From the NCBI GenBank assembly GCA_950295325.1, contig OX485808.1:30338527-30402526 (forward strand): a stretch of 64,000 nucleotides of DNA. The letters are read 5' to 3'. Positions 177 through 54,316 of this stretch are shown one piece after another. Below the pieces are notes generated by a model. The model was not told the origin of the DNA, searched no databases, and saw nothing but the letters and a program-made list of their open reading frames with translations. Every line of letters begins with the position of its first letter. The stretch's first letter is position 1. The translations under genes were made by a program, and so were the position numbers. Origin of the DNA: Polytrichum commune. Taxonomy: Eukaryota; Streptophyta; Polytrichopsida; Polytrichales; Polytrichaceae.

Positions 177-208
177 TTAAAACACTATATTCGTTAAATT
201 GAGACTTT
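177..208 (+). repeat. Left TIR of element 1 with TTAA target duplication
   Basis: TTAA at 177-180 is followed by a 28-bp terminal inverted repeat starting AACACTATATTCG. It is identical to the reverse complement of 16415-16442. Confidence 0.9.
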
Positions 209-341
209 TTGGGCATTTTGAGACATTCACATAAATAAGAACAAGGATAAATGGAACACATATTGGAGAAAGTTGTAAGATGCGAACACTTTGAAGCAGG
301 TGTTTAGACCAAGAACCCCATAAATAACTCATATTTGTGAT

Positions 342-563
342 GGTTTAGGGTGGGCAATCCAAATCTTAGACCACATTTAAGGGGAAACCTTAAAACATTC
401 ATATTATTGCACACAAAATATTAGAGCTTGTATGAATATGGTTTAGGTAGGGCAATCCAAACCATAGATCTTATTGAAGGGTTAATATGTTAACCAATAT
501 AATATTGCATACAAAATATTCCAAACTCATATTTGTGATGGTTTAGGTAGGGCAATCCAAACC
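342..563. repeat. Degenerate copies of the element-1 palindrome near the left end
   Basis: Three related 24-bp stretches lie at 342-365, 440-463 and 540-563. Each begins GGTTTAGG and ends TCCAAA. They match the intact palindrome at about 19 of 24 positions (G to A and C to T or A changes) and no longer fold perfectly. The surrounding 100 bp is also repeated, including the phrase 'catatttgtgatgg', so this is a decayed tandem subterminal repeat. The derivative at 32277 keeps one such copy. Confidence 0.65.
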
Positions 564-766
564 TTAGACCATATGGAAGGGGAAATCATGTCTAACTTGT
601 ATTATTGCAAAAAAAAAACATACAAAGTGTGGCATGTAAAATGCATATCATGCTAACACCACACATGCATTGGATAGTGCGACCCAAAATGTTCTTGCCT
701 ATGGCCCAAAACCCTACGCCTACTATGGCCTATCTAGCCTCGGATACTACCTCTTTTTCTTTTGCT

Positions 767-1568
767 TCATTTTCTTTTGCTTTTTTTTTCTTTTGCCTCT
801 TTTTCTTTTGCTGCAGCTTCTTTTGCTCGCATTGCTTCAACATTCCTGAAAATCTCCGCCCCGCGACTATAGCCATTCTTGGGGTGAACGCCATCAATAA
901 CACATTTTGTATTCCGTCGGCCGCCCGAATTATACGACGAAGAATTCGAATACGATGAAGTGGACTGTCTTGCATTTCTGGTCATGGAGTAGAAACGCTC
1001 CAACTCGATGGACGCACTAGACCGCATAGGTTTACGGGTGGGAGCAACCTGCAACGCGTCAACGCACGAACACATGTGTTAGTTTAGGGAGGAAGACCCA
1101 AACGTGTCACACATTCATTTTTTAAGTGCAAAATGATTGTAATGCGCGGATAACCATGTTTTTTTGGGGGGGGGGGTTCACCTTGTCACCGGGGGCGTTC
1201 CCGTCGGAGTTGGCGAGGAGGGGCAAGGCATCCCGCAAAGGAATAGGAAGGGTTCCACTCTTCGTAGGCCGAGCGTCCATCCGCAGCCGCCGTTGAGGTG
1301 TACTACTGCCGCCGGGCCGAGAGGGGGATGTCCGGACGCATTTGCGATTTATGCCTTTGAGCGGTGACGGGGACGCAGATCGCCGGAAGATTTGCTTGGG
1401 TGGGGGGCTATCGACGACGCCGGCGTCAAGAGGCTCCTTGGAGTAGTCGATGGTTGACGCGGCGTCGTAAACGGTCTCGTAGAAGAAGCTCCCCAAGTCT
1501 GACTCGCTGACGACGTCAATCGAGGGCTCCAAACGCTGGAGCCAAAATTGGAACAAAACAAAACCCAA
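767..1568 (-). CDS. Small conserved two-exon gene of unknown function (element 1 copy)
   Basis: I do not recognise the family. Exon 1 runs from about 1568 to 1182 and ends AAG|GTGAAC. Exon 2 runs from 1048 to 767 after a TTGCAG acceptor; both junctions are phase 0. Exon 1 contains a conserved stretch with DAAS, DYSK and GVVDS-PPK. Exon 2 is Ser/Arg rich, contains GYSRGAEIFR followed by an Ala/Lys/Glu helix-forming tail, and stops at 767. The homologous gene in element 2 (53120-54004) keeps the same motifs and the same exon-1 donor position, which is good evidence that this is a real gene. The 133-bp intron holds a degenerate palindrome near 1085-1106. There is no clear ATG for exon 1: either it starts at a codon I cannot place or a further 5-prime exon joins near 1530. 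It lies just downstream of the fusion gene on the same strand. Confidence 0.6.
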
Positions 1569-1678
1569 GGAAAAGGGGGGAGATAGAGCGCGTGAAAATC
1601 AAGATACATATGAAGCGTAAATTACACAAAATGGGTAGGCGCATATACACACACACACATACAAACACACGTACTGTC

Positions 1679-2491
1679 TCAAATGAGCTTGTTAAATTTC
1701 GCGTGAGATAACAACTCTCTGTACAAATGGTCTCGTGGATCCAAGTATCTCTCGCCTATGGGATTATTCCTAACAAAATTGTTTACGGGAAGTCCACTTC
1801 CCCAGAGCGCCTGGAGGTATTTACTAAGGTCTAACAAAAATCGGTCCCGGACCTTCTCGACCGTCCACGTAGGGCACACTATGAAGTTGGCCGTCGGGTT
1901 CAACATGTTCTTTGCGGCGCTGTCGTCCACCATGAGCGTGTTCTCGCGGGTGGGGCGGACGTCGTAGGGGACGCCTATCAAGGACGGTCGCTGGTCCCAA
2001 AAAATGGGCTTCAAGACCTTGAGGTATTGGGGGGAAGCGGGGTTGTTTGGTTTTTTGACGACTTTGCCGTCCTGTGTGTACAATATTCTACAGGCTTCCT
2101 GTGCTAGGACCATGCAGGGGGGCTCGATGCCCTTGAAGATGAACTCCACGACCGCATTGGTGTTCTCGGCCGTCATGGAGCTCCACACGACCACCCACCA
2201 TCGTTGTTGGGCGATCTGGAGGAAGGTCCGAAGCCACGGGCGGAGGTGAACTAGTTTGCTCTTTATGAACGTGGGCGGCCCGTCGTAATTAGCGTCCTCG
2301 GGCTTGCAAAAGGGCACTGTGGGGGCCCTAGGGCAATGAACGCACTGCACGAGGACACCGTTCAGGTCTAACACCAGGAATCGTTTCTTCGGCAGCGGGG
2401 GCGGGGCGGGTAAAACCGGGGGGGCCGCCGTGCTGCCCTCTGCGCTCCTTGGAGAAGAGCGTCGGGGAGCCGCTACGCTATGCTCCGAGCC
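1679..2491 (-). CDS. Fusion gene exon D: HAD / FCP1-NIF-like phosphatase domain
   Basis: This exon has 270 codons and a TGA at 1679-1681. It follows a pyrimidine tract and ATCCGCAG acceptor. After a Pro-rich start comes LDLNGVL (motif I; the second Asp of DxDx[TV] is Asn here), then WSSMTAENT (motif II Ser/Thr) and MVDDSAAK (motif III Asp pair). The order and spacing fit the FCP1/Scp (NLI-interacting factor) HAD family. Such proteins dephosphorylate Ser/Thr, but replacement of the second motif-I Asp, the usual acid/base, suggests weak or no activity. The C-terminus (NPIGE, DPRD, NKLI) is conserved in element 2, which confirms the stop. Element 2 has DLSGVL, so the same Asp is lost there too. 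Confidence 0.65.
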   Translation of the reverse strand, partial: GSEHSVAAPRRSSPRSAEGSTAAPPVLPAPPPLPKKRFLVLDLNGVLVQCVHCPRAPTVPFCKPEDANYDGPPTFIKSKLVHLRPWLRTFLQIAQQRWWVVVWSSMTAENTNAVVEFIFKGIEPPCMVLAQEACRILYTQDGKVVKKPNNPASPQYLKVLKPIFWDQRPSLIGVPYDVRPTRENTLMVDDSAAKNMLNPTANFIVCPTWTVEKVRDRFLLDLSKYLQALWGSGLPVNNFVRNNPIGERYLDPRDHLYRELLSHAKFNKLI

Positions 2492-2950
2492 CTGCGGATA
2501 CGAGCGAGAGAAAACGGGGGCGACTTATGTCATGCTATGTCCAAACGAAGCATTAAGGAAACGAGCGTTCTCGGTGCAAACACAAAAGCATTTGATTCAT
2601 TTTGGAGGGGGTGCAACAAGGGATACAAGGGATACAAGAGCATACAAAATACATTCAAACACAATATACAAGTATATAGGAGTCAAAAATGGTGATTATA
2701 TTATATACAATGCTCTATGTACATCTTGATTGGGGGAGCCGCGTTGAACGATGCGTTCAAACTAGCCTACTTCTACATCTAGAAAAAATTGAAGAGACGG
2801 GCCGCCGTGATGAAGACTTCGTTGCAAAGCCGGGGGTAGGTGGACGAACGAATGGTCGCTGGGGGTGACGAAGGGCGCGAGTGCCGGGGGGGGCCTAAGT
2901 TCGTCCTAGCTAGGGGACACGACCAAGGCAAGAAGTCAAAGACCCAGGAA

Positions 2951-3345
2951 GTTTGGGTCGGCCGACCCAAACTGAGTGGGGTCAGTGCATTACCTCGCCT
3001 TGGTCGTGCCTTGACGACGTTGATGCCGGCATCGCGTGCGCTGCCCCACCTCTGTCACCGCCGCCTCCGACGACGCCGTCAGCCGCAACCTGCTCCTGCA
3101 AAGGCTGACTGTCAGGCCTTTGTCCCAACCCAACCTCCGCATGCGCATCATGCATTGGTTCATCGACTGGGTTAGGAGTAGAGGTATCACCAGGCCCTTG
3201 CGGGCCTTCAACATCTAGCATAGGCTCGTCGACCGGGGTCTGATGGGGGACGGGGTTTGGGTCGGCCGACCCAAACCCTGCTGCTTGGCGAGGGTCGCTC
3301 TGCGACGCTGCAACGTCGGCACTGTTTGGGTCAGACGACCCAAAC
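2951..3345. repeat. Element-1 palindromes in the last intron and the end of exon C
   Basis: Three copies lie at 2951-2972 (in the intron between exons C and D), 3255-3276 and 3324-3345 (in exon C). The first two have centre GC; the third has a changed arm (TCAGA). All are 22 bp with ten-base arms. Confidence 0.85.
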
Positions 3346-4473
3346 ATGTGGGGGTCGTCCCGCTGGTGGTGTGGGGGCAAGAGGATGGGAGGCCGGAGCG
3401 GGGGGGGGTGCCAACGAGCTGGACGCTCCGGGGACGCGCCAAAGGTTTGGATCATCCACCTGCTGCACAGGCGCGTAAGGACGGGCGTGCGGCTGCAGCA
3501 AATCCGCGAAGCTGAAGGAATGCTCCAACGCCGGCCGCGGGCGGATATCCTGTGGAGGGAAGCCTGCGGGCAAGTGAGGGAATGAACTCGGGGGAGCCAT
3601 CACCAATCCCTGCGCCAGCATGCCCTGGATCACTTGCGTGATGAGGTCCGCTTGGGACGGAGTTTGGGACATCGCCCTTTGCCGCTCCTGCTCCAACAGG
3701 AGAGCCCTCAACTCCGCGACTTCGTTGCGGACAGAGGGTTCCTCGGCGGCAGCCCTCTGCAGTCGCACACGCTGCTCCTCGTCTCGGAGCATTTTTGCGT
3801 TCGCCTCCTCCACGGTGAGGACCTCCGGTTTCACCCTCACATTCCCGGCGAACGCTCTGGGGGAGGCAGGATCAGACCTCAGCTTCTTGGCGAGTTCCAT
3901 GTCGTCCTCGTCCTCGGAGCTTATTGCGATCGTCTCCTCCACCGCATAGTCCCCGTACAGCTTCTTCCCCTTCATCCTTCTACGCTCCCTGAAGGTGGCC
4001 GTCGCGTCCCTCGAGTACATATCCTTGGCGTCGTCCACCGTCAACGCGGGCACCAGCCTGCTCTGCGGCGTGGCAGGCCGCATGGCCTTCTTCCGCTGAG
4101 GGGCCTCGGATTCTTGAGTGAATCCTGTTGCCCCTTCCTCCACCTCCCCCTCCACTTTCTCTGCTTCCTCCTCCGCCTCCTCCTCGTCTTCCTCCCCCTC
4201 CTCCCCAACCCTGCCACCTGCTCCCATAGACGGATTGCCCGGATGCAACCCGATGAGCGGCTCTGGCAATTGAACGGGGGCCCGCATGGCGAATTCACCC
4301 GGGTTGATTCGCCTCGCAATATCCAAAGGATTCTCGCCCCCCTCGACGATCTCTTCGACGTAGGATCCGGGTATCTAGTCGAGGATGTCCATTCTCTTGG
4401 CCAGCGCCTTTTGGGTCCTGTAGAATTGAACATCGGCATCCTCTACATAGGAGTAGATGTTCAACCCAGACAT
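2994..4473 (-). CDS. Fusion gene exon C: acidic and coiled linker with palindrome-derived residues
   Basis: The acceptor GTGCAG precedes ATGTCTGGG at 4473. The exon begins with the acidic strand of the methyltransferase-like fold, then carries an in-frame TAG (4375-4377), a Glu-rich tract, a conserved basic-to-acidic block (FRERRRMKGKK followed by SSEDEDD), a Glu/Arg/Leu coiled-coil-like stretch and a Pro-rich tail. It ends GAG|GTAATG. Two intact palindromes (3255-3276 and 3324-3345) lie in the predicted reading frame and encode FGSADPN and FGSSDPN. A nine-G run at 3400-3408 shifts the frame by one base; with eight Gs the exon is exactly 493 codons. Element 2 exon C (49109-50524) is fully open and has the same order of features, including a palindrome near its 3-prime end. 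Confidence 0.55.
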
Positions 4474-4556
4474 CTGCACAATCAAAATCAATACTATTAG
4501 TAACACCAAATGAACATATAATGGAAAATGACTTCCAAACAAAATAAGAATAGTTA

Positions 4557-4650
4557 GTTTGGGTCGCTCGACCCAAACTATGCATGGCCCTAGTTTGGGT
4601 CGAGCGACCCAAACTGTGCATGCCCCTAGTTTGGGTCGTTCGACCCAAAC
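4557..4650. repeat. Three element-1 palindromes in the intron between exons B and C
   Basis: Intact copies lie at 4557-4578, 4593-4614 and 4629-4650, exactly 36 bp apart, with different centres (CT, AG, TT). They are separated by a short TATGCATG / GTGCATGC spacer. The intron spans 4474-4684. Confidence 0.9.
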
Positions 4651-4684
4651 CGAACGTATAGGGACTTCTGGGTTTTCTGCTTAC

Positions 4685-6016
4685 CATGGCTGCAAAAATC
4701 GGTTTGGACCCCCCGAAAACGTTGAAGATGCAGTCCCCTCTCTTCGTGAGGGTCCTCATCATCCGCAGGTAGAACTCCATGCGCAGCTCATCCGCGGGGT
4801 AGTTGGCGTACTTCGCCTCGTCATATAAGCTCCTGCTGGTACCCAACCCTTCTTGGACTTGGAAGAGCTTTTCCATCCTGGCTATGGGATGGTTTGGCAC
4901 CTTAAGCAGCTCAGCTTTGTACACGAAGTACAAACACAGCACGTTGACGATCTTCGTCTTCTTGTCTTTCAGCGTGCTGTACACCCCCTCCGCCGGTGCA
5001 GCAACGTAGTGAGATTTCGAGACGGCATACTCCGGCTGCAATTTGCGCACGATCTCGTAAACCTGCTCTGCCCTTCTGTCCTCGACAATCCAGAGCCAGA
5101 CGTCGACCTCCCTGAATTTGGGGCTGGCGTAGTCCACGAACTTCGACAAGAAAGGATCGTAAAAAGGGGTGCTCATAGTCCCCTCGAATGAGGCTCCAGG
5201 GATGTTCCTGAAGTCTATCATTCCGAAGGGGAAGCGGTCCCCGGCTCTAGTCCTGATCGCCTTCCTTGACTCAGAACCCGGCCAACCCTGGATCCTGAGA
5301 GGTTCGACAGTGACCATGTTGAATTGCGCATCGCCTTCGAAACTGACGATCTTCTTCTCCTTTATGAAGTTGGAGAAGGCCCGCACTGAGTGTTCGGGAA
5401 GCGCCCGGTTCCTCCCCCCCTTCACGAGCTTGGATCTGAGGAAGTCGTCTCCCGCCTCCCTCATGAGTGCCGCCATGGACGCACTGGTAAACTTATATTC
5501 GGCTTTGAAGGCCCTCCAGTGCGCCTCGTCGACCTCTCCGTCCACGATGAGCTTCTTCTCTGGCACAAGCTTGTGCAGCTCCTGGACGATGGTCGTCTTC
5601 TTCTTCCTGTTCTCCGTCCATTCCTTCATTGTGTAGCATGAAGGGACGAAGATCTTGGGTTTGGTGAAGACGATCTTAGGGTGGACCCAGCATCTCTTCG
5701 CCGTCGTCTCCACGTGTAGGATGTGGGACGCCGCTTTTCCCATCTCTGTCTCGGAAAGACCTTGAAGCGCTCTGAAGAACTCCCTCACCAGAGGCTTCAT
5801 TTGCTTGAAGCGCGTAGTCTGGTTGAAGAGCATGCCGGTGTCGGGGTCCATGAGGTCCCCCGTCTCGTGTTTTTCAAAAACACTCTTCCATCTTGCCCAT
5901 ACGGAATCGGACGCTGTGATCAAATAGATTTCTCCTCTCAGCTCGTTATACTTTTTCTGCTTGTGGCTAGCATTGTCGATCGAGGAGAATTTATTGATCA
6001 TTTGATATTTGAAGTC
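4685..6016 (-). CDS. Fusion gene exon B: methyltransferase-like region
   Basis: This exon has 444 codons, is open throughout and starts after a TGTGCAG acceptor with DFKYQM. The last part reads DCIFNVFGGSKPIFAAM and then, across the intron, continues as MSGLNIYSYVEDAD. That matches motif I (F-x-GS) plus the following helix and acidic strand end of N6/N4-type DNA methyltransferases. The usual DPPY catalytic motif is not evident; the best positional candidate is FGMIDFRNIP, which lacks it, so catalysis is doubtful. Element 2 keeps NVFGGTK and a DFRAFPG equivalent. ParB-like plus methyltransferase is a known prokaryotic pairing, which makes the call more plausible. It could instead be a Rossmann-like binding domain. 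Confidence 0.5.
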
Positions 6017-6078
6017 CTGCACAGGAAGACATTAGCACATGTTAGACAACACATAATGGAAAAACAAATGCAACAGCA

Positions 6079-6271
6079 GTTTGGGTCGAACGACCCAAAC
6101 TATGAACCTGGCGAAAACATCTTAACAATTTCAGAGTTTGGGTCGACCGACCCAAACTATGAACCTGGGGACAATATCAAAATAATTTCAGAGTTTGGGT
6201 CGACCGACCCAAACTATCAACCTGGCGATGACAACAAAACAATGTAGGAGTTTGGGTCGATCGACCCAAAC
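6079..6271. repeat. Four element-1 palindromes at 57-bp spacing in the intron between exons A and B
   Basis: Copies start at 6079, 6136, 6193 and 6250, each 57 bp from the next, with centres AA, AC, AC and AT. The spacers are near-identical (TATGAACCTGG followed by TTTCAGAG), so this is a small tandem array inside intron 6017-6279. Confidence 0.9.
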
Positions 6272-6279
6272 ATACTCAC

Positions 6280-7605
6280 CTCCCATTTGGGGTTCTTGTC
6301 TTTAGCATTCTCCCTTTCCTTGGGAGGCCTTCCATAAAACTCCCACACCTCCCTCGAGGCCATGATGTTTCTGATCCACGATGCCTGATAGGCCCTCTTT
6401 TTGTTCCCCATGTTGAAGAACCTGGAGATGTCGCTGAGGACCGTCTCGTTGTCCGACCAAACCACCAAAGCCTTCCAAACTTTTAGCTTCTCCTTCTGGT
6501 TGTTCGGGTCGTCCCACTCGGTCATCAGCTGGATTTTTTTCGAGGCCTCCACACTGTGCTGCCCGTCAATCAGCCAGAAGTCTCCTTTAGAGATTGCCGG
6601 CCACATCTCAGGCGTCGGCATTCTTTTCAGCCCTTGTGGCATGACAACAATTGTCTGCCTGTCGTCCTTGAACTGCCCGCCCAAGATTTGAGCGACCATC
6701 CAGTCGACGTAGGCGTCCTCCTTGGCTCGGACGCACTTCTCTGGTGGCGCAAGGTGGCACTGCGCAATGTTGACCTCGAATTTGAAGTCCCTGCCCATGA
6801 AGAAGCAGTGCAGGCATTTTGTCTCGAAGTTGTTGTTTATTTTTTGTATTTCGCCTGCATCCACCTCTTGGCCAGGCTTCGGCATGCGGAGCTCCGGGGA
6901 AACAGGCTCGTCAGTCATCCCCGATGACTCTCTTCCCCTCTTGGAAGGGGTCGTCTGACGGCTTGTTGATGGCGTTGGCGTCTCGCTGTCAGCCGGCGTT
7001 GTTGTAGTGCTCGTCCGTCTCGAGTCTGCAGGGACCGCCCGCGGTTTCCTCACAGTTTGTGGTCTTGAGGACCCTGCGCCTTCTTCCGTCGTTGCCTTCC
7101 GCCTCACAGGCTGCTGCGTCTTGGGTTTGCTTTGCAGCGCCTTGTTGAGAACCGTGATAGCCTGTTTTAACTTCGTGAACCTGCTCGCAACCTTCGTGTT
7201 CGTTACACTACCATCTATGAATATGGCCTCTGGTTTTATGGTTTCAGGGTCGACGCAAGTCTCCTTGGCGTACAGGGGGTCGAAGGGCTCGGAGAACTGG
7301 TGCATGAACATGTGGACGTTCTGCACGGCGGAGTTCTCCAGTATCACGTCTACGTAGTCCCCGAGAGACTGGACGGACGCAACCTCCCATCCCGTCAGCG
7401 TTGCCTAGGTGTGCTGCTCGTGGGTCCCCACCTTCACCACGAATAGCAGCTTGAACATGGATGCCTTCACCACCTGAACGGACCATGCCAAAACGACGCC
7501 ATCTTTTGGGACGTAAGAATCGTCCTGTGGAGTTTCATACTCCTGCCAAAGGTGGTCTGGCGCGAGCATGAACCACCTTTCACCTGGTCTCTTTTTAGGG
7601 GCCAT
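6280..7605 (-). CDS. Fusion gene exon A: N-terminal region and ParB/DGQHR-like domain
   Basis: This exon has 442 codons with one in-frame TAG at 7405-7407, about residue 67. After a basic Ser/Thr/Pro-rich stretch (about residues 120-220) comes a globular part with WLIDGQHSVEAS at about residues 344-355. It is preceded by a strand-forming IVVMPQG stretch and a P-rich segment. The pattern hydrophobic-DGxH-x-x-x-A is the signature of the ParB N-terminal / sulfiredoxin-like fold (DGQHR class). The usual Arg after His is Ser here and also in the element 2 copy. In prokaryotes such domains often precede DNA methyltransferases. The domain call is motif-based. The exon ends in a GAG|GTGAGT donor, and the intron that follows carries four palindromes. 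Confidence 0.6.
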
Positions 7606-7632: not shown

Positions 7633-8413
7633 GTTTCGGTCGATCGACCCAAAGTATTGCAATGTGCATTTAACATTTGGAGGATTGACCCAAACATTTA
7701 CTTAATTTTCAAAGTCGTTTTAAAAGATCTTTTAGATTTTAAAGTGTGGTTTAGGTGGTCACCCTGTAATGTTTGGGTCGAGCGACCCAAACATGATGAG
7801 GCTGCAAATTTAGGTATCTCAACACATTCATTTCAGACTGCAATGTTTGGGTCGAACGACCCAAACAATTACTTAATTTTGGAAGTTCTTTTATATTTTA
7901 CAATGTGGTTTAGTTCTTCTCCCTGTAATGTTTGGGTCGAGCGACCCAAATATGTTAGGCTGCAAATTTAGGTAGCTCAACCCATTCATTTCAGACTGCA
8001 ATGTTTGGGTCGAACGACCCAAACATTCACTTAATTTTCAAAGTTCTTTTATATTTTACAATGTGGTTTAGTTCTTCTCCCTGTAATGTTTGGGTCGAGC
8101 GACCCAAACATGTTAGGCTGCAAATTTAGGTACCTCAACCCAGTCATTTCAGTCTGCAATGTTTGGGTCGAACGACCCAAACATTTACTTAATTTTTGAA
8201 GTTCTTTTATATTTTACAATGTGGTTTAGTTCTTCTCCCTGTAATGTTTGGGTCGAGCGACCCAAACATAATGAGGCTCCAATGTTTGGGTCGCTCGACC
8301 CAAACAAGAGGCTGCAATGTTTGGGTCGAACGACCCAAACATTTAGTTCATTTTAGGCTGCAATTCAAATATTTATTATATTTTAATATGAGTTTGGGTC
8401 GTCTCCCCAAACT
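7633..8413. repeat. Palindrome array upstream of the fusion-gene start
   Basis: Ten good copies start at 7633, 7771, 7845, 7930, 8003, 8088, 8161, 8246, 8284 and 8319. Decayed copies lie at 7674-7695 and 8392-8413. From 7771 to 8267 the centres alternate AG, AA, AG, AA. This shows repeated duplication of a unit of about 158 bp holding two palindromes. The array lies between the pyrimidine-rich leader and the CAG|ATG at 7605, so it is probably within a 5-prime-UTR intron. Confidence 0.88.
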
Positions 8414-11517: not shown

Positions 11518-12632
11518 GTTTGGGTCGGTCGACCCAAACCCAGCCTTACAGTGTGGGTGCTCTCTGTATTGAGCCAGAACCCATCCTGCCTCAAGGTTTG
11601 GGTCGATCGACCCAAACCCAGCCCTACAGTGTAGGTGCTCACTGTTGTGAGCCTGAACCCATCCTGCCTCATGGTTTGGGTCGATCGACCCAAACCCAGC
11701 CCTACAGTGTGGGTGCTCACTGTTGTGAGCCTGAACCCATCCTGCCTCATGGTTTGGGTCGGTCGACCCAAACCCAGCCTTACAGTGTGGGTGCTCTCTG
11801 TTGTGAGCCTGAACCCATCCTGCCTCATGGTTTGGGTCGATCGACCCAAACCCAGCCCTACAGTGTGGGTGCTCTCTGTTGTGAGCCTGAACCCATCCTG
11901 CCTCATGGTTTGGGTCGATCGACCCAAACCCAGCCCTACAGTGTGGGTGCTCTCTGTTGTGAGCCTGAACCCATCCTGCCTCATGGTTTGGGTCGATCGA
12001 CCCAAACCCAGCCCTACAGTGTGGGTGCTCACTGTTGTGAGCCTGAACTCATCCTGCCTCATGGTTTGGGTCGATCGACCCAAACCCAGCCCTACAGTGT
12101 GGGTGCTCACTGTTGTGAGCCTGAACCCATCCTGCCTCATGGTTTGGGTCGGTCGACCCAAACCCAGCCTTACAGTGTGGGTGCTCTTTGTTGTGAGCCT
12201 GAACCCATCCTGCCTCAAGGTTTGGGTCGATCGACCCAAACCCAGCCCTACAGTGTGGGTGCTCATTGTTGTGAGCCTGAACCCATCCTGCCTCATGGTT
12301 TGGGTCGATCGACCCAAACCTAGCCCTACACTGTGGGTGCTCACTGTTGTGAGCCTGAACCCATCCTGCAAAAAGGTTTGGGTCGCTCGACCCAAACCCA
12401 GCCCTCTAAGTGTGGGTGCTCCCTGTCGTGACCCAAAACCCATTCTGCCAAAAGGTTTGGGTCGCTCGACCCAAACCCAGCCCCTAAGTGTGGATGCTGT
12501 CTGTAGTGAGCCTAAACCCATCCTGCCAGAAGGTTTGGGTCGCTCGACCCAAATCCAGCGCCTAAGTGTGGGTGCTCTCTGTATTGAGCCTGAACCCATC
12601 CTCCCAAAAGGTTTGGGTCGCTCGACCCAAAC
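11518..12632. repeat. 78-bp tandem array of 15 element-1 palindromes upstream of the transposase
   Basis: Palindromes start at 11518, 11596, 11674, 11752, 11830, 11908, 11986, 12064, 12142, 12220, 12298, 12376, 12455, 12533 and 12611. Spacing is 78 bp with one 79. Each repeat is the 22-bp palindrome plus a 56-bp spacer (CCAGCCCTACAGTGTGGGTG and on). Centres are GT, AT or CT and are arranged in blocks. The spacers diverge most in the last four units. Because 78 is divisible by three, several frames stay open across the array without being genes. The array lies 214 bp before the transposase ATG. Confidence 0.92.
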
Positions 12633-37704: not shown

Positions 37705-38053
37705 TTAACAATGAGTATGTGGGCGCGCAAAAAATAAATGTGAAAACCAACAAACTTGTGACAGATATTGGAAGCTTGAAATATCCATCTGTAGCCTTTA
37801 TTTTCCGCGCATAACAAGGGCATGCCGTCTTTGCATGGTCCATTTTGTCATGAATGATTGTCAAAACCTCATTCGGCCTCATTATCGATAATGCGCGATT
37901 CTTGTAGTACTCTTGACGGTGTGCCTCTTGGTTGTTGACATGCTCAATGTATTTCAGTTGATGTCTGTTGTGCGATTCAGTCCCTATGGGATGTGCATCT
38001 CGAAGGCCTTTATATTTCTCACAAGCAGAACACCTGGCAAACTTATCCCCAGG

Positions 38054-38995: not shown

Positions 38996-40253
38996 TCCCC
39001 AGGTCGCTTCGTAATGTATTCTTCGAATTGTTGATTCTTGATCACACTCAATTTTGACAACGAAATCGGCCCACATCCAGCATTTTTGCCAGCTTCATTA
39101 ACATCCATAAGTATGTTCTTCCATTTTGTCCCTGTAGGCAAAACCATCTGAACAACCTTTTCCCCCGACGGTAGAGTCCGCGTCTTGTGTGGCATCGCAT
39201 CTGCCAATGGCATAATGATGGTGGATAGTGTTGCAGCCGCTTGGAGTGTTGCCTCCATGGGCTTCTTTGTGCCAGAGTTGTCATGGAACCGAGAACGGCG
39301 TCCTTGCATCGAGTATTTCCGGAACCTATAAAAATTTGCTTTTGAAACTGCATGAATAATGTACCATGCCGCGCAACAAACTTCTATATTCTCCAAGGTC
39401 ACCACCCTACGACCTTCGGCATCAAAGTGCATGTTGCGATGAACTTCAAGCTTCTTTGCAGATCGCATACGAAAGTCCCTAAGCCACATCTCTTCTCTCA
39501 AAGATTTGACTTTGTCACGGGGAAATAATTGGCAACACCTCTTTGCACAACAATCCTTTGTTGCTACGGCCCTAATAGATGCGTCTCCCAATATTTGATC
39601 TCGACGACGTTGCGTGGGTTCACGAGGCAAACGAAGGGAATCATATTTACGCCGACCTGTTCTAGGGCGCATTGTGGCGAACAAAACCGATTGCATTTGA
39701 TCAAAACGGCGGGCATGATTCCACAAGCTGACACCATCATGAAGAACACTGCGCAACGGCCATCGACGAAGAGAGAATCTCCAACCATGAGGCACTTCCA
39801 ACGGATGTAAGGAATTCAAAATGCACACTCCCACATCTTCTTCCCCAAGGGGATTTACATCAATACAATTTGTAGGATTCAAGTTCCGACAAACACCATC
39901 GGCCACGGAGACGCCACATCCATTGACTAGGACAACATCAAGATCAATCCACTGCTCCCGCGAATAACCCTCACATGGTGGAAGGAATTCATCCTCTACA
40001 TTGGCGACACCAATTGTAGTTTCTTGTTCCACGACAACTTCAAACTCGCTATCATAGCTTAACGCTTCCGAAGAAAAATCAAACCCACTATCACCGATGT
40101 TGGAATCCATGGCCACTACAAGAGAGCCAAATGAAGAGTATGTCAAAATATCCCATTCAATAAATGTCATGGATAGCCCTAACGCTTATTATTGTCAATG
40201 AAACACAATGTGAACAATAGTGGATTTCATGGCTTGGAAACAAAGACACATTG

Positions 40254-41067
40254 ATATACGAACGTGCGTCCGTATACCTCCATGTAACAACATTAGCAAC
40301 GCAAGCACTTGCGCATACGGATACATTTATGTGTTCATAGTCAGCCGAAAGGTGCAGACAACAAAAACATCACTGGTTTATGCACGCGTATCCGTAAATC
40401 GGCTCGTGCACAGAGTTCAGTATCATGGTCAACCACAACATAGGTATACGGACGCATGTCCGTAAACATCCGTATGACAAACATCAATGTAGTCCTAGAC
40501 ACAGAGGTTTAGGGAACCAAGAGGTCCTGGCAACACGGCCATATATATCCAGGCCTGACGACTCATGAAATTTGAAGAGGTTAACATACGCGTTTCCTAC
40601 TACGTTTTATCAATGTCAAAATATTATACTATGACACATAGGATGATGTAGGCTAAGGGATGCGAGCTCCCAACCCTTCATGACCGTACAGTCTCAGTGC
40701 AATCCCCTACATAGCACATGGTGAACATTATGGCTACAAAGGTTTCCAGGTTTACGGACGCTCGTCCGTAGACCTCTGTGGACCTCATTACTAGTATAAA
40801 TACAGTGCTCGATGGAATAAAAGTCCAACACGCCAAGGGGTTTACGCTTTACGGACGTGCGTCCGTAAACTTCCATGGAAATATATTATCTTTGTGGTAC
40901 TCTACACGACGTGGTTTAGGTGACATACAGAACCAATGTATGGCACTTAAGGTCTACAGGTTTACGGACACGCGTCCGTAAACCTCAATGTACATGAGTA
41001 TTGGCTCTAATAAATAAAGGATCAATGAACCAACATGTTCAAAGTTTACGGCCGCGCGTCCGTAAAT
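40254..41067. repeat. Element-2 palindromes upstream of the transposase
   Basis: Copies lie at 40254-40277, 40444-40467, 40750-40773, 40847-40870, 40960-40983 and 41044-41067. The form is GTTTACGGACG, two free bases, CGTCCGTAAAC, with some decay. Half-copies are near 40312 and 40379. They occupy the same position relative to the transposase as the 78-bp array of element 1, but are dispersed at about 100-300 bp rather than tandem. Confidence 0.85.
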
Positions 41068-45492: not shown

Positions 45493-46116
45493 GTTTACGG
45501 ACGCGCGTCCGTAAACTTCAGGGAACCCTGGGAATAAGCATCGCACTATGTGAACAGTTTACGGACGCACGTCCGTAAATTGTAGAGATATTTAAAAATA
45601 ACTATTTAAAAACATGAATGAGAAGTTTACAGACGCACGTCCGTAAACTTGAGATATCTAAGTACAAGAAATCTAATACATGATACATGTGCAGAGTTTA
45701 CGGACGCGCTTCCGTAAACTAGGCAGAGAAAACATGAAAATCTCATAACATAATACATGTAATTGGTTTTCAAAATAAGTTCTACAAAATATACAAGTTC
45801 TACAAAACAAAACAAACTTATTTTCCAAAAATTTACGGACGCACGTCCGTAAATTAGGGCTACCTAAGAATAAAAAACCTATTATATTCATAAAATCTAG
45901 AAATAAAGACTTTTGGATACTATATCCGCAGGAGTTTACGGACGCGCGTCCGTAAACTCTGCACATATATCATGTATGAGATTTCTTTTACTAAGATATC
46001 TCAAGTTTACGGACGTGCGTCCGTAAACTTCACATGTATGATAACATAATACATGTGTAGAAACCACATTCTATAAGAGGTCGTACGCAAAGGTTTATGA
46101 CCGCGCGTTCGTAAGA
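45493..46116. repeat. Element-2 palindromes upstream of the fusion-gene start
   Basis: Copies lie at 45493-45516, 45557-45580, 45625-45648, 45696-45719, 45831-45854, 45934-45957, 46005-46028 and a decayed one at 46093-46116. Centres vary (CG, CA, TG). They lie between the leader and the GCAG|ATG at 46170, as in element 1. Confidence 0.9.
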
Positions 46117-47475
46117 TAGGCTCTGCATCCCTTGACCTTAATACTGACTTGTATATTTTACATTTGCAGATGGAATCTACAAAAAGACCCGCTATTGATA
46201 TATTCGCAGAGCTTCTCCATCCTCCGCTTCCAGACGCCATCAAAGATATCAGCCACAACGACCATTACAAGCCACGCGATGACATTGTAGATAACTGGAC
46301 AATTATTATAGAAAAATATGAAAATGAAATATTTGTCCTTAGATTTGCCTATCAAATAAAAGCAGATATAGATGAATCCGAGAAGTGGATCAAGGTTAAA
46401 ACTTGGACAGGAGAGTGTGCGGTAGCCCAAGGTGATTATGTTGTCATTGACCTTGAAAATAAAAATGATAGGATCACATTCATTTTGCACGAGTTGTACC
46501 ATCCGTTCAACAAAAATGAATGTGAGAATGCCAACCCAGATGCGTCTTGATTCAATCTACAGAATAAATTCCAAGACTATGCATGCAATGCACCCAGGAC
46601 AGGTAAACGGCTTGGACGTCTCTTGAACAATGTGACAAGAGTAAATGAGGCATTACTGGAAGCCAAGAAAGGAAAGGAGAAGAAAAAACTAGTTCTTGAA
46701 CGACCTAAACGTGTTCTTAAACACGTGCCAGAAGCCTCCAGACCCTCACAGAGTGGAGCATCAAGAGGGAGCAAGCAGGCCAGTAAACGCTCCCACTCAC
46801 AGATGGAGTCGTCTGGGCTAACAGAGGGTCCAGATGTGAGCTCTACTCTTACTGTTGCACCACTCCTGAAGAAAGGACAACGCCCTGACGCCGAACTTTT
46901 TACAAAAAAATTCCAAGAGTTCGACGAGAAGACAAAGGGCTACTGGCCATTTGGCAAGTATTTTACGTTTGATGTGGATGTCTACAAATGCCACAAGGGG
47001 ACGGAGAGTATGAATACTCATGCCAAAAAAAAGACCGGGGTGTGGTGGCAAATGAATAACATTATGAACAACCCCAAATTTGATAGGCAAACGATATGTG
47101 TGACACCAAAGGATCATGTGGTTAAAGTCACAGCGCAAAATTGGCCAATTCTCAAAGATGGAGAGTTCTACATAGTCGACGGCTAACATAGTGTGATGGC
47201 TGCAAAAACTCTCCTCGAGGACGATGAGTGGAAGAGCCCTTTGAAAGAGACAATCCGATACTGGAAGACATTCGTCGTCCATTCCAAAGACTCAAACCAG
47301 CTCATCGCAATATCTGCCTTCATGAACTAAGGGAATAAAGTGAGGCAGTTCGAGGCTTCATGGGCAGCCAACATCGTGGCTGGAAGGACCTTGTAGGTGG
47401 AGCACGATTATCCCCCAAAAGAGAGGGAGAATGCAGTCATCAAGAATCCCAAATGGCAGGTATGTCTCAGTATAA

Positions 47476-47499
47476 TTTTATGGACGCACGTTCGTAAAC
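47476..47499. repeat. Element-2 palindrome in the intron between exons A and B
   Basis: A copy with two changed arm bases (ATGGACG and TTCGTAAAC) inside intron 47460-47575, the intron that carries four family-A copies in element 1. Confidence 0.75.
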
Positions 47500-48959
47500 C
47501 TCTTCCTTCTCCTTCCAATTCTTTAATTCCTTCAATTTAAACTCTGTTGATTTCTTGTAATACATGGCTTTGCAGACATTCAGCAATGACATCTTGACAA
47601 AGTTCTCCAGCATTGACTTGAAGACAAACGGCATGAAGATGGTGCATGAGCTGAAGGGGGAACTTAAGCTCATCACTGCCACAGAAGAGACATGGGCAAT
47701 TTGGTTGCGCCTATTCGATGCCATAACAACGGAGACCTTATCAATCCGGATGCAGAGAACACGTACAAGAGCGACTCGAAGGTTAAGGTGCCACCTATCC
47801 TGAGAGAGTTCTTTCGTCCCCTCCAAGGATTGCTCGACTCCGAGCTGTACAAAGCGGCACAACACATCCTATTGGAGACTCCGAGGAGGACACTGCCCTA
47901 CTCCAAAATCTTCTTGAAGCGGCCGAAGCACATGAAGCCTTCTACGTACCACATTAAGGAATGGTGCGAATACAAGAAGAAGAAGACCATGGCTATAAGG
48001 GAGATAAGCAAGCTGCTGCCCTCCCACAACCTCACTAATACAGATGGTGAGATAATGTGGGAAAACTGGAGGACGCTCAAGGAGGAGTATCATATCAATG
48101 GGGTCTCCATGCGATCATTGATAAGAGACGCATCTCCCTTCTTAGCCCAAAGATCTAGGAGGAACGAGAGAAAGGGTCTATCGACGAAAGAGAGACGGCC
48201 GGCGTTGTACGTTCATTTCATTGACAAAAATAAAATAAAATAAAAAATAAAAAATAAAAAATCGGAGGGGTCGTAAGATTTTGCATTGTGACAACGGCCT
48301 TGAAGTTTGGCACATGTGACACCCATGCTTCAAGAGCCTCTGTGAGAGATGACCCCCGGGGTTGTCCGTTCGCAATATTTGATTTCCGTGCATTTCCCGG
48401 ATCTTGGAGACAAAACTTTGGCGGGACCGCTTTCTATGACAACTTCTTCAAGGCCTTCAAGAGCTATCGGTCGCCTGCCCTCTTCGAGCCAAATGTGTGG
48501 CTCTGGATCGTAGATCAAGAGAGGTCTGCATCGGTCGTCCAGCTGTACACATCGACGATGAACCTCCAATACGATCTTTACCACAGTACATACATCCTGC
48601 GAAGACGGAAGGGATTAGTGTTATTGAAGAGGCAAGAGGGGTGAAGCAGGTCGGGGCTTTGGTACTTTATTTCTTGACACACAAGTCTTCACCAAGTGGG
48701 CGGATGCCTATCAAAGCGCAGAACGTGTTCAAGAAAATATACTAGTTGCCACCACCACACCCCAAGGAGCTTGTCGCGGAGACTATATATGCAATCTACC
48801 CGGCGTACGAGCTCCGAATGGATTTTTATATTGGAGTCTTGAAGGCTGTGACTGTGATGAGTGAAACAGTTTACAACGTCTTCGGAGGCACCAAATTGTT
48901 TATGCGGCATTCGTAAGTACGTGTATGCACCTCTTTCCATGGTTCATCTGAATTGAACC

Positions 48960-49029
48960 TTACGGCCGCGCGTCCGTAACATTGCCCAACAAATCTGCAG
49001 TGCAAATTTACAGCCGCGCGTCTGTAAAT
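48960..49029. repeat. Two element-2 palindromes in the intron between exons B and C
   Basis: Copies at about 48960-48980 and 49006-49029 with GGCCGCGCGTCC and AGCCGCGCGTCT cores. They lie inside intron 48913-49108, the equivalent of 4474-4684 in element 1. Confidence 0.8.
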
Positions 49030-50439
49030 TACACTGCTTCATGTTTATATTTGTCCTGATACTTGCTTGCAACAATGGAATGACTATAATTTCCTTGTTT
49101 TGGTGCAGATGCTTGGGTTGCAGGTAAATTCGTTTGTGGAGGCTCGCGACATGGATGAGGCGAATACTCATAGGGTTCTTGCCTCCAAAATGGATGTCAA
49201 AGACATCATTGATGTCTTAACCCCCCATCTTGTGGTGCCTCTTGCCTCAAGAGAAGCGGGAACTCCTGCGACGGAGTGGGACAGTGACAGAGACCAAGAT
49301 CCCGTCTCCCCAAGAGAGCAGCCCGCCAGACAAGATCACGTACCCGGCCTTGTTCGTGATCTTGTTCATCCACATCAATTTCTCTTGGACGAAGGCCACA
49401 TGGATACAGAGGAGGCGCATGAAGACTTCACTCCAATAAGGGTCCATCCTACCCCTATTCCCTCACCCTTTGGGACTCCCACTTCTCGAGTTGGGTTTCC
49501 TTCCACTGCGGGTCCATCACGTGTTGCTAGGCTTATGGCAGAGAAGGATGTGGACGTTGCGACAGAAACCGGATGCACAGCCTCATCTGGAGGGGGCTCT
49601 GAACAGGAAGAGCTACTACCTATGGAGGGTAGAGATGTGCTAGAGTTGATTTTGAGGCCGGATATCGCCTCATACCGTGAGAGTCGTCGACAGAGGAAGA
49701 AGACTCCTTACAACGAGTACCCTGAAGGCGCCGTCTTGGAACTCTCGGATGAAGATGAGTATGAGGTTAGGATGTACAATGCCATCTCTGCGTTGCCTTC
49801 TGAACCTGGCAAGGTGAAGAAAGAGCCGATGTTTGTGGCCGAATTGGACGAGAAACTGGAGAAGAGAATGAAGGAAGAGCTTGACCAACGGCTTCGAGAA
49901 GCTAACGAGGAGCACGCCAAAAAGATGGCCGCCATCCAAGCTGAGATGGAGGAGGCTAGGTTGGAGTCTGCTCGAAGGCACGCCGATCTCATGGCTCAAA
50001 ATCAACAATTCTTGGCCCAAAGCCAACAATTTATGAGCCTCATGCAGAGCTTGCAAGCAAGACTCCCAGTAATGTATGCAACTCCCGATGTCGGCATGTC
50101 GATGCCTCCCACTCTCATGCGGCCTCCTTCTAGTAGCCATACGGTGTACATACCTGAGCATGCTTATCCAGCCCCCGCGTTGTATGTCCTGCCCTCTCCC
50201 CAGGTTGTCGCCACCCCAGAGCCCTCCTCTCATACGATACGAGAGGAGGAGAGACATGCACGTTGTACGGCAGGTGCCCACGAGAGAGGCGCCATTGAAG
50301 ACAACACAACCATTGGCAGCCAAGAAGATGAACATATGCGGGGCAGCCAAGACGCCACATATGAGGATCAACCTTATGTCGATACCCAGGGGTCGCAAGC
50401 GGCTGGAGACGCCTTGGTGGTGGAGGATAGCTTGCACAA

Positions 50440-50574
50440 TTTTGCGGACGCGCGTCCGGAACTTGTGCCCACGATGGGGCCTGGTGAGGGAGGCACTGCT
50501 GGCAAGGGCCTTGCCGCTGAAGAGGTAATCCACCTTTGAGCTTGCCTCCCACGTTACGGCCGCGCGTCCGAAAC
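50440..50574. repeat. Element-2 palindromes at the end of exon C and in the last intron
   Basis: 50440-50463 lies in the open frame of exon C and encodes part of NFADARPE. 50553-50574 lies just inside the following intron. The same exon-plus-intron pairing occurs in element 1 (3255 and 2951). Confidence 0.8.
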
Positions 50575-51493
50575 TTCCTTGTCTGCCAACTTCGTGGCGT
50601 GTGTATATTGTCGAGTTCGATGCTCGACTTCGCCCGGCGGGTGGATGCAATTTTGCCAGCATAGATTCAATTAGTTTTAGGGGAGACCTTTTGTGACAAT
50701 GTAAATTATTCGTGAAATGTATTAAACCAAGCACATTAATACAAATTTTTTAAACTGGGTAGTTTGTATTCTTTTTGCCTTATATTTGTTTGTTGAGTTT
50801 GTGCATGCTTGTCAATTGGTTTTCCTGGGTAGTACCATTCACCTAGATAGTATGTTCCATCACAGGGTCCGTCGGAGATATGTCGCAACCCCGCTGAAAG
50901 ACCAAGCCGGCCCATGAGGAAACCGTTCATAATATTTGACCTCAGTGGGGTGCTTTGTCATTCCATGCATATTTCCAATAGTGCGTCGAAGGGTCCCTTC
51001 CGTAGTCCACAAGACATGGATTACGGCGGACAGTTCGATATTCTCATTAACAAGAAGGTTGTACGGGCCCGGCCGGGGTTGAGGTGCTTCCTTCGTGAGG
51101 TCCTTGGCTTGGCCCATGTCATCATCTGGAGCTCTATGCTCATGGACAACACGAAGGCCATCGTCGGTTTCCTTTTCCGAGAACTCGCAATGCCATGCTT
51201 GCTTCTCGGTCAAGAACACTGCAATGACCTTTATGACCGTAGTGGCAACATTGTACCCAAGGTCGGAGGAGGCCGAGGGCCTCAATTCCTAAAGGTACTG
51301 AGGAAGAACCTCTAGGTGGGCGTCCCTATGTTGGAGGGGGTGCCCCACGGTTGTTGGCCCACCCCGGAGAACATGCTCCTCATTGACGACATCCCGGCAA
51401 AGAGTATTCTCAATCCCCCGGGCAGTTGCATATTCCCGGATCCTTGGGAGAGTGATAGAAATGACAACTTTCTAGAGAATGAACTAGGACCCT

Positions 51494-52886
51494 TGTGAGG
51501 CCAAACCCACCACCCTTAAGCGTCCTAGTCCGGGTGATAGCTTTGAGAATCACATGCACTCCATAGAAACTTGTGGTAGCGTGAAATGTAACTTCCATCT
51601 CATTGGGCACCCACCTTACTTAAAGTCGTGTCATTTTATTAATGCTAGCCTCATGAATGGGTGGAGCGTTGGCCTTCTCAAGGGTCCAACCTTCGGCCTT
51701 CGCTACACATGCCCTTAAGGATATTCTTCTTGAAACCCTAACTTTGGCCAAGGCTTTCTCATTAGTGATCTTAGCCTCCGTGAGGCTATGGCTTGTAGAC
51801 TCCATGTGGCAATTAAGTTTCTAATGTATTAATCCCCCATTGTCAACCCAAGGCCATTCTCTTTGTGTGGAACCACACAACCCACCCTGGTACTTCACAT
51901 CAAGCTTAGCACTTCAATTTATTCCATAACAAAGACACAAGTGTTAAAAAACACTCTTCCCTATTCTATTGCCATCTCACCCCCTTGGACCATTGCTTAA
52001 CTACCACCCTAGTCTAAGGTATGTAAACCCGCTAATAAATCCCAGCTCCTTCAAACCTTAGTCGGCAGTAGCTAATACATCCCAGCTCCAGTTGGCTGCG
52101 GCAGTGGCTGGTACATCCCAGCTCCAGTTAGCTGCGGCAGTGCTAATACATCCCAGTTCCAGTAGCTGCGGCAGTGCTAATACATCCCAGCTCCAGTAGC
52201 TGCAGCAGTGCTAATACATCCCAGCCCAGTTAGTTGTGGCAGTGCTAATAAATCCCAGTTCCTTCAATCATAGTCTACTTAATCTCTAACAAACCCCCCT
52301 AACTAATTAATCTAACCAAGCCTTACTAATCCTAATAAACTATTAACTAATTCCCACCTTAATCAACTATATTCCTAAGTTCCCCCTAATCAAAATATTT
52401 TCTACCACACTACAACACACACGCACACACCCACACTCACACACCACACTCACACACATGAGAGAGGAGTGAAGAAGTGAACAAAAGAGAGAGAGAGAAG
52501 ATTGAGAGTGAGGAAGATAAAGGGTGAGGGGATGAGAGAGGTGAGCTCACCCCCAAGCCCTCAAGCTCCTGGATCCTCTCCTACTTAGTAGGCTCTTATC
52601 CTATCCACTAAGCTCTCAACTCCTAAACTAACAAGATGGATCCTAATTCAAACATTTAACCCAAAGGCTCTTCCTCTTGCCTCCTCAAACACTACTCCTC
52701 TAATCAAACACTCCCTAATGTCACTAAGCTTCTAATTAACCACACAAAATAGGCTTAAGGCCTAAAACATAAACCACACCAAGCCTCACTCTTTTTATAC
52801 TTTTGATTGTTTTAATAACACTCCAAATGCGATTCTAAATAAATTCTAAACATAAAACAAATATGAGCAACCATTTTGGGCTCATA
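51494..52886. mobile_element. Solo LTR inserted in the phosphatase exon of element 2
   Basis: 1,393 bp, TGTGAGGCC...GGCTCATA, flanked by ACCCT on both sides (51489-51493 and 52887-52891). Excising it with one ACCCT restores an open frame that matches the C-terminus of element 1 exon D. The first 40 bp and the end resemble the 1,828-bp Ty3 LTR, so it is a related family. It contains about six copies of a repeat with GCTAATACATCCCAGCTCC and GCTGCGGCAGT (52060-52260). Confidence 0.93.
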
Positions 52887-53119
52887 ACCCTACATTAGGA
52901 GGCTTGCCTATCACCCCGGAAGTGTCCCGGATTTTGTCCTCTCCAACCCCATTGGCAATAGGCCTCTAGGCCCAAGAGATGAGGAATTTAGGAGGTTGTA
53001 CGGCTATGCCAAACTCAATAAATTAATATGAGAACTAATTTTTGGGTTTGTACTTGGACTCTCCATGTTTATATCTAACATTTCTCCCCTTATTTTGTAA
53101 ATGTATTTTTGTGTCTTAG

Positions 53120-54004
53120 TTGCCTCACCAAGCATCCCAAAGTCTCGTCAATGGCATGTGTGCATCTAAGCCGGGCCCCAGCTCCCCTTCCATTGGTGTG
53201 ACCGACATTTCAATGCCTTCACTATTTCAATTTTCAGTCGTTGATGCCGCCTCTGCTGTTGATTACTCCAAAGACTCGGGGTTTGAAGACGGAGTTGTCG
53301 ATAGCACTCCTCCAAAGGTTGCAAAACTCAATTACGCTCCATCTCCATCTCCATCTCCCCTCCGCAATGAGAAGCACGTTCGAAACCCGCGGTCGACTAG
53401 ACGCCTTTGTATGGATGAACCCCAAATTGATGTCCTGGCGTTTACGAACGTCCCTGTTGTCCTTGTGTCCCCCCTCAATGTCCCAGAAGGTCAAACCACC
53501 GCCCCGCAGGCCAAGGTGCCCAATTATTAGCATTCTCAAGTTTTTTCTTCATGATTTTCGTGTATTAGTGTATTTCATATTCTTGGGTTTTTCGGACTTC
53601 CATCCGTAACTTATACTAACCCACGTCATTATATGTATTTATGGTCATTGTTTCATACCCCAATATACATGAATGTGGGCCGTTCATCCTCGACTTCGTC
53701 ATTGGATAGGCGAACACTGAAGATTGCTTCTTGCGAGTCTGATCGTTGTTTGGCCCTACGGAAGAGTGCAAGACGTTTGGTTTCCCAAACGCATTCGTAT
53801 TCCACTTATTCGGTAGGGGGTCGGCAAATATGGGCAAATGGCACATATTCGGGGTCGAGAAATAAACAAGGTTACAGCCGCGGACCCGAGATCTTTAGAG
53901 CCATGGAGGCCATGAAAGCAAAAGACCGTGAAACGGCAGTAAATGCTAATAATAGTATTGCAAAAACAAAAGTACTGAGTCGTAATCATGATCCGAACGT
54001 ATAG
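53120..54004 (+). pseudogene. Small conserved two-exon gene, element 2 copy
   Basis: Exon 1 runs to 53515 and ends GCCAAG|GTGCCC. It contains VVDAAS, DYSK and GVVDSTPPK. A possible ATG is at 53156; alternatively, a CTTAG acceptor at 53119 would make this an internal exon. Exon 2 ends at 54004 and contains GYSRGPEIFR plus a Lys/Ala helix. Motifs and donor match 767-1568. I could not find an AG acceptor at the expected place for exon 2, so splicing may be lost. The intron has a decayed family-B palindrome near 53590. Confidence 0.6.
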
Positions 54005-54284
54005 GCTATATTAACATACATGTAGTTGTGGAATTATGTTTCTAGGACTTTGGCCTAATATTGGATATTCCACTTGCATTTTGTACTTCAACCCTATTCA
54101 ATAAATATGATATTGATTTTCCATATGCAAATGTTTTCATATATCCCATTTTCTTATTTTTATGTGTAGTTCCATGCATTTGAGTCTCTTATTTGTTTCC
54201 AAAATTGGGAACATAGCATATTTTTAGTGTTTTCCTTCCTACAAATGTGAAAGCCACGTCCTTAAATAGTCTCAAAATCAACAA

Positions 54285-54316
54285 AAAGTCTCCAATTACC
54301 GAATATAGTGTTACCA
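54285..54316 (-). repeat. Right TIR of element 2 with ACCA target duplication
   Basis: 28-bp repeat ending CGAATATAGTGTT, then ACCA. Confidence 0.87.

Follow-up and report, generated by a model that had tools for sequence, protein, structure and literature searches.

Private palindrome arrays in related terminal inverted repeat transposons of Polytrichum commune: a possible lineage-specific address with an element-encoded reader

This study concerns a stretch of 64,000 nucleotides of the Polytrichum commune genome (assembly GCA_950295325.1, contig OX485808.1, positions 30,338,527 to 30,402,526), referred to here as the window, in which two related transposons with terminal inverted repeats (TIRs) each carry arrays of a palindrome of their own. 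Element 1 (E1, A lineage) is a full TIR transposon at 181-16442, flanked by the target site duplication (TSD) TTAA and with its outer 28 bp the same at the left and right ends. Element 2 (E2, B lineage) is full but decayed, spans 35420-54312 with the TSD ACCA, and its left boundary is corrected here to 35420 from that of the initial annotation, which was made from the window sequence. A third copy at 32277-32533 is a miniature inverted-repeat transposable element (MITE) of 257 bp, which belongs to the A lineage, has the TSD CCTT and is 81% identical to E1 over 192 bp at its left end and 96% identical over 53 bp at its right end. The termini of all three are variants of a common terminal repeat, A[AT]CA[CT]TATATTCG, each with a 4-bp TSD, and these common repeats and target duplications identify E1 and E2 as genuine insertions. 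Together with the elements read elsewhere in the genome, 14 of 15 full elements have 4-bp TSDs, the exception being C1_5765; TIRs, TSDs of fixed length and a transposase place the family among the class II TIR transposons. A TSD of 4 bp is given as a trait of Sola2 as well (PMC3627910).

Both elements contain a transposase gene and a four-exon fusion gene in divergent orientation. The transposase gene of E1 (12846..15910, plus strand) has an intron at about 14292-14419, an exon 1 whose start codon is uncertain, and an exon 2 that encodes the domain DUF7869 (PF25273, E 1e-42), while that of E2 (36114..40110, minus strand; DUF7869, E 3e-37) is disrupted by a stop and by about 930 bp of inserted sequence at 38062-38993, which apparently has inverted-repeat ends. 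The DUF7869 protein is named a transposase here by its place and copy number and not by a curated name; no paper on DUF7869, and none joining NIF, terminal inverted repeats and a transposon, was found in the literature searched. The E1 fusion gene lies on the minus strand (1679..7605) with exons A at 7605-6280, B at 6016-4685, C at 4473-2994 and D at 2491-1679, the borders having been set by eye and by comparison with E2, and its exon D encodes a NIF/FCP1-like phosphatase domain (PF03031, E 4e-15). This copy is interrupted by an apparent frameshift and two in-frame stops; in other A copies, the stretches of exons A and B are open. The E2 fusion gene (46170..53028, plus strand; NIF, E 4e-6) is decayed, with several stops and frame breaks. 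Also conserved, downstream of the fusion gene, is a third stretch of coding sequence, at 818..1511 (minus strand) in E1 and 53198-53926 (plus strand) in E2, with 52% and 42% identity in two pieces. When E1 and E2 were compared by blastn (E 1e-3), only the ends and the gene exons aligned besides telomere-type repeats. The latter are short (CCCTAAA)n repeats between the divergent genes, at 9912-9953 in E1 and 42265-42291 in E2, of a type that would point to a plant or green alga as the host.

Palindrome A, GTTTGGGTCG-NN-CGACCCAAAC, is present in E1 in 35 copies with at most 2 mismatches, 31 of them exact. Palindrome B, GTTTACGGACG-NN-CGTCCGTAAAC, is present in E2 in 22 copies with at most 6 mismatches, 13 of these with at most 3, in a graded decay; the copy at 53588 (6 mismatches) was excluded as chance-like, and 21 E2 sites were used. 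Palindrome A is absent from E2 at up to 4 mismatches and B from E1 at up to 7, and dinucleotide shuffles of the elements (10 for each) gave no site at up to 5 mismatches. The flanks of E1 and E2 contain neither palindrome, except for a single A-like site in the MITE (32439-32460, 3 mismatches), and the window contains no further palindrome in three or more copies when 8-bp arms are required to be exact and the gap to be 0, 2 or 4. The private palindrome that the initial annotation had assigned to each of the two elements is thus confirmed, with 35 A sites in E1, 21 B sites in E2 and none crosswise. Its description of the sites needed adjustment. A freely varying two-base centre was found for A, with 9 dinucleotides among the 35 E1 sites and 13 among 284 A sites, but not for B, whose centre is nearly always pyrimidine-purine (CG, CA, TG or TA in 20 of 21 E2 sites and in 66 of 67 sites across four B elements). 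Likewise, the 24-bp length and the GTTT...AAAC ends described for E2 include an outermost G...C that is weak, being present in 23 of 42 E2 half-sites, and the B core is therefore taken to be TTTACGGACG-NN-CGTCCGTAAA, 22 bp long like A. The B centre looks like an original CG decayed by cytosine deamination; A and C, the third family described below, differ in this respect.

The sites occupy equivalent places in both elements, as had been claimed, that is, upstream of both start codons, in the fusion-gene introns and at the end of exon C. Before the transposase gene, E1 has an array of 15 A sites in 78-bp units (11518..12632) and E2 has 7 B sites (40254..41067). Upstream of the fusion-gene ATG, E1 has 10 sites in 158-bp two-site units and further copies (7633..8340), the closest of which (2 mismatches) lies 27 bp before the ATG, with an extra degenerate copy at 8392, and E2 has 8 sites (45493..46116) before its ATG at 46170. 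The intron between exons A and B holds 4 A sites in 57-bp units in E1 (6079..6271) and one B site in E2 (47476..47499), and that between B and C holds 3 A sites in 36-bp units (4557..4650) and 2 degenerate B sites (48958..49029), respectively. Further downstream, E1 has two sites at the variable end of exon C (3255 and 3324) and one in intron C-D (2951), together spanning 2951..3345, and E2 has one degenerate site at each of these places (50440 and 50552; 50440..50575). The transposase intron contains a B site with 4 mismatches in E2 (37680..37703) and none in E1. Coding sequence conserved between the elements makes up 45% of the length of E1 and 38% of that of E2, and none of the 35 A or 21 B sites lies in it by half or more. 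Near the left end of E1, subterminal 98-bp repeats (326..585) carry only degenerate A-like sites (343, 441 and 541; 4-6 mismatches). The arrays appear to have been rebuilt, because those of E1 have five unit lengths (36, 57, 78, 98 and 158 bp) and other A elements are spaced differently. In six further mapped elements (3 A, 2 B and 1 C), sites again precede each of the two genes and occur within introns A-B and B-C.

For the survey beyond the window, the genome from which the window comes (407.8 Mb) was used, and genome-wide counts were made for the TIR and for palindromes A and B. The exact TIR word occurs 1,583 times (776 + 807), as opposed to 13 times (3 + 10) for the reversed control, and there are 9,731 exact sites of the 20-bp A core and 1,147 of the 22-bp B core, with no occurrence of either reversed pattern. 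Sixteen elements, 15 full and one partial, were then read, namely E1, E2, 11 elements on the contig designated C1, which were picked by paired TIRs alone while their palindromes were still unknown, and three further B elements. A de novo palindrome search found one palindrome family per element in all 16, namely A in 8, B in 4 and, in the remaining 4, a new third family, C, TTACGAACG-NN-CGTTCGTAA. Other repeated palindromes were limited to two C elements, which have AT-rich runs; one of these two, C1_25750, also has a short palindrome in three copies. All 353 exact sites with 9-bp arms in these elements (230 A, 37 B and 86 C) belong to the home family and none to a foreign one, and eight extra element pieces showed A in one, C in four and no site in three. 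Each lineage accordingly has one dominant palindrome, in 16 of 16 elements and in all 5 site-bearing pieces, although 16 elements are a small sample where the TIR count suggests hundreds. Two C elements of 9.5 kb (C1:639070-648560 and C1:31473167-31482645), with 37 and 31 C sites at up to 1 mismatch, are non-autonomous: tblastn with E1 and C queries found no transposase and no fusion exons A-C, and detected only a piece of the NIF domain. These two copies have lost most of their coding sequence and kept, or amplified, their sites.

Compared from the dyad outwards, the half-site positions T2, T3, G6, C9 and G10 are common to the A, B and C consensus. B and C differ at a single half-site position, number 7, and A and B are equal at 6 of 10 positions (p = 0.028), or at 4 of 8 when the inner CG is left out (p = 0.20), which hints at, and does not prove, a common descent of the sites. 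The encoded proteins follow the same grouping. Between E1 and E2, 610 of 973 transposase residues and 444 of 1,211 fusion protein residues are identical. Transposases of A elements are 61-69% identical to those of B or C elements, and B and C transposases are 74-86% identical to each other; for transposase exon 2 the corresponding values are 65-69% and 82-86%, with 91-100% within a type. In contrast, over a stretch covering most of fusion exon A, members of one type are 79-100% identical, A agrees with B or C at 33-39% and B with C at 40-43%. Judged by these identities between types, the fusion protein has diverged far more than the transposase, and the palindrome goes with the clade. The covariation with the encoded proteins that the initial annotation had proposed as a check is therefore present, palindrome type being the same as protein clade. 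Its statement that the palindromes were replaced as a set is better expressed as divergence in concert, as B and C are one half-site position apart. Overall, its interpretation of a recognition site turning over together with its reader is supported in part.

The arms of the palindromes are also steadier than their surroundings in several E1 arrays. In 14 of the 15 units of the 78-bp array, changes affect 1 of 280 arm positions, 6 of 28 centre positions and 55 of 784 spacer positions (p = 1e-6); in 3 of the 4 units of the 57-bp array, 0 of 60 arm positions are changed versus 13 of 105 others (p = 0.002), and for one half of the 158-bp unit the figures are 1 of 80 and 17 of 64 (p = 3e-6). Each of the 10 half-site positions is at least 95% one base among the 284 A sites, a constancy that is partly due to selection, as these sites were chosen at up to 2 mismatches. 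Frozen arms around a variable centre are what a symmetric site that is read by sequence, with its centre uncontacted, would show, and the palindromes are very probably protein-bound DNA. Three site families coexist in one genome, which would argue for readers encoded by the elements and not for a host factor. A site for a single host factor was considered and rated low, since one host factor would not need three sites.

A comparable arrangement is known from Arabidopsis, where VANC proteins act on VANDAL transposons in a sequence-specific anti-silencing system (PMC5735166). According to the published descriptions, VANDAL lineages have their own short motif, tandemly amplified in introns, intergenic and upstream regions, the motif differs among related lineages, and VANC diverges more than the transposase (PMC5735166; PMC10398659); VANC6 motifs are also reported in the unrelated element AT9TSD1 (PMC5735166). 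As far as these accounts describe the system, the elements studied here resemble it in having their motif arrays in noncoding DNA, both introns and upstream regions, a motif that is lineage-specific and enriched in its own lineage, a companion protein, the fusion protein, that is more diverged than the transposase, and A arrays outside family elements, much like the VANC6 motifs in AT9TSD1. They differ in that VANDAL motifs are described as 8-9 bp long (that of VANC21 in one orientation), as opposed to 22-bp palindromes with a variable centre, and in that the scanned fusion exons contain neither DUF1985 nor DUF287 in Pfam. The VANDAL transposase is of the Mutator type (VANA), whereas DUF7869 is the only Pfam match above the cut-off in the transposase here, and the TSDs are 4 bp long. 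The E1/E2 family is thus not a member of VANDAL, since transposase, TSDs and companion protein differ. In Ac and Spm, element-encoded transposase proteins bind repeated subterminal motifs that serve the element ends. Spm TnpA has in addition been linked to demethylation (PMC10398659). An element-encoded protein and repeated motifs within the element are common to that system and, on our reading, the present one, and TnpA is described as tied to de-silencing; here, however, the sites lie mainly in promoters and introns and differ despite nearly the same TIR.

Because the anatomy matches that of VANC and VANDAL, we propose the fusion protein as a dimeric anti-silencing reader, and we lean towards a VANC-like reading of the whole, a lineage-private address with such a reader encoded by the element. 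Each lineage would bear a private address in the form of arrays of a palindrome of two 10-bp half-sites and a 2-bp centre, placed next to the two gene promoters and a short way into the fusion-gene introns. The reader, a product of the lineage itself and most likely the fusion protein with its rapid evolution, would bind the palindrome as a symmetric dimer and coat the noncoding regions of its own lineage, which would stay transcribable while host silencing is countered in a sequence-specific way. As the specificity of the reader drifts, the arrays would be rebuilt from new tandem units with all sites shifting together, and such concerted change would leave the lineages mutually blind. As to the parts of this reading, the fusion protein is probably the reader, judging from its sequence divergence, and an anti-silencing effect, suggested by the analogy, is about evenly balanced against repression or other control.

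The nature of the fusion protein was pursued in several ways. By eye, its middle exons resemble, in the order of motifs, a prokaryotic ParB-domain DNA methyltransferase such as gp25 of phage AcaML1, with DGQHSxxA where the phage protein has GHxRxxA and a D-F-R segment at the place of DPPY, followed by FGGS and a helix-like tail; the fusion protein differs by an added phosphatase-like domain. The catalytic DPPY is absent; by alignment, E1, E2 and a C element have DFR at its place and one B element has YFR. Matches of the fusion protein to the phage ParB and methyltransferase profiles were not significant; they exceeded 15 column-permuted controls and had the expected register, and a wrong pairing (exon A with the methyltransferase) scored equally high. 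A deeper alignment of the fusion protein brought no improvement, and the idea of a ParB and dead methyltransferase protein is a lead from motif order only. A fold search with the exon B model gave weak matches, Alba at the top and then DNA methyltransferases and acetyltransferases intermixed. Sequence searches of the PDB with the fusion protein returned no credible match, no relatives were found in viral contigs and prokaryotic genome contigs, and phage tblastn gave four weak matches in one search and none in another.

Several observations weigh against the proposed address and reader. The Pfam scans of the fusion protein, which covered E1 exons A-D (C partly) together with pieces of E2, two exons (A and B) of a C element and one (B) of a B element, identified no DNA-binding domain and only NIF above the cut-off, and the AlphaFold models of exons A and B (pLDDT 37 and 44) yielded no clear fold. 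Arm constancy is not general, as the arms are not significantly steadier than the spacer in the 36-bp array (p = 0.17) and the other half of the 158-bp unit (p = 0.34), and the 158-bp unit taken whole gives p = 1, its spacer containing a second site. The covariation has only three independent lineages behind it, and most change in the fusion protein is not a change of specificity, because fusion proteins with as little as 79% identity in exon A still go with palindrome A. The three B elements other than E2 (two full, one partial) were picked since B sites were listed there, and these fetched elements hold 1-3 C-like sites each at 1 mismatch. One B element has two B/C hybrid sites; hybrid and C-like sites are what single changes would give, because one base in each half-site separates B from C.

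The exclusivity of the palindromes is qualified by the same survey. Among the first 100 A sites listed, 81 lie inside or beside three elements, one of which is marked by a single exact TIR, and the other 19 form six clusters on contig C1 with no listed exact TIR nearby. Among the first 50 B sites listed, 29 lie in elements with paired exact TIRs and 6 within 12 kb of a single TIR, 3 form one cluster with no listed exact TIR near, and 12 are located beyond the part of the contig with listed TIRs. Clusters of this kind could represent either elements whose ends have decayed or some other sequence. One A cluster (C1:2154000-2155199, 1.2 kb) shows no similarity to the transposon family outside its array and adjoins a 230-amino-acid open frame that is unrelated to the family, gives the impression of a transposase and has no Pfam match; another (C1:476600-479199) adjoins a long terminal repeat (LTR) of a retrotransposon family that is also present in the window. 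Such A clusters outside the family could be other elements carrying the address, as AT9TSD1 does for VANC6, or remnants. The exclusivity claimed for the lineages therefore stands for the exact sites within the elements read, and the A clusters outside recognised elements keep it from being absolute. The retrotransposon in the window lies between E1 and E2 at 20589-31454, has a 2,086-amino-acid open frame, Gypsy-like by its look, and LTRs that are 99.945% identical across 1,828 bp, which marks it as a very recent insertion.

Other functions of the palindromes have to be weighed against this. They could be internal and subterminal sites through which the transposase governs its own promoter or transposition, as in Ac and Spm elements: the E1 array with the most sites precedes the transposase gene, degenerate A-like sites occur near the left end of E1 and in the MITE, and the first 54 aligned residues of the transposase are variable (20 identical). 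However, the majority of sites are remote from the ends, within promoters and introns of the fusion gene, the transposase is better conserved than the fusion protein, and the palindromes of E1 and E2 differ despite nearly equal TIRs, a comparison on which the fetched elements, being selected by TIR, are uninformative; we consider this explanation unlikely. We also find it improbable that the palindromes are operators of an element-encoded autoregulatory repressor for copy-number control. Fifteen sites over 1.1 kb and the sites in introns are more than a promoter operator needs, and a repressor would not obviously favour the retention of more than 30 sites in the non-autonomous copies, even if A sites come to within 27 bp of the E1 fusion-gene ATG and a symmetric site with a free centre is also seen with dimeric repressors.

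An action as RNA hairpins, for example in splicing control, would agree with the observation by eye that in both window elements a site lies at most about 45 nt past each of the three fusion-gene donors. Among 43 changed half-site positions in E2, however, 36 are changed on one arm or unlike on the two and 7 alike on both, so that the arms are conserved as sequence and not as pairing, and with the majority of sites upstream of genes, hairpins are very unlikely. Finally, tandem arrays, some of them (of A) outside recognised elements, are in keeping with functionless small mobile repeats or by-products of tandem duplication; in three tested arrays the arms are fixed while centre and spacer change, and the positions recur across three lineages with the families unmixed, which makes a lack of function very improbable.

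Returning to the address and its element-encoded reader, a further-reaching version can be put forward tentatively, which we regard as possible and somewhat doubtful. It would be a lineage-specific code of self-recognition that evolved independently of VANC, with a dimeric reader that is possibly a dead ParB-methyltransferase joined to a phosphatase-like domain and that would settle on the private palindromes and shield or tag its own kin alone, with address and reader diverging together, and with non-autonomous and unrelated elements as free riders. A limited literature search found no description of the present system, from which its absence from print is not claimed. If the code is real, short symmetric targets and matched readers might become available for locus-specific control of silencing. 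One genome would hold three cognate pairs of site and reader, two of which, B and C, are one half-site position apart, and the joint change of a recognition site and its reader in a selfish element would become directly testable. Sequence-specific self-recognition of transposons would then have arisen more than once, from unrelated proteins.

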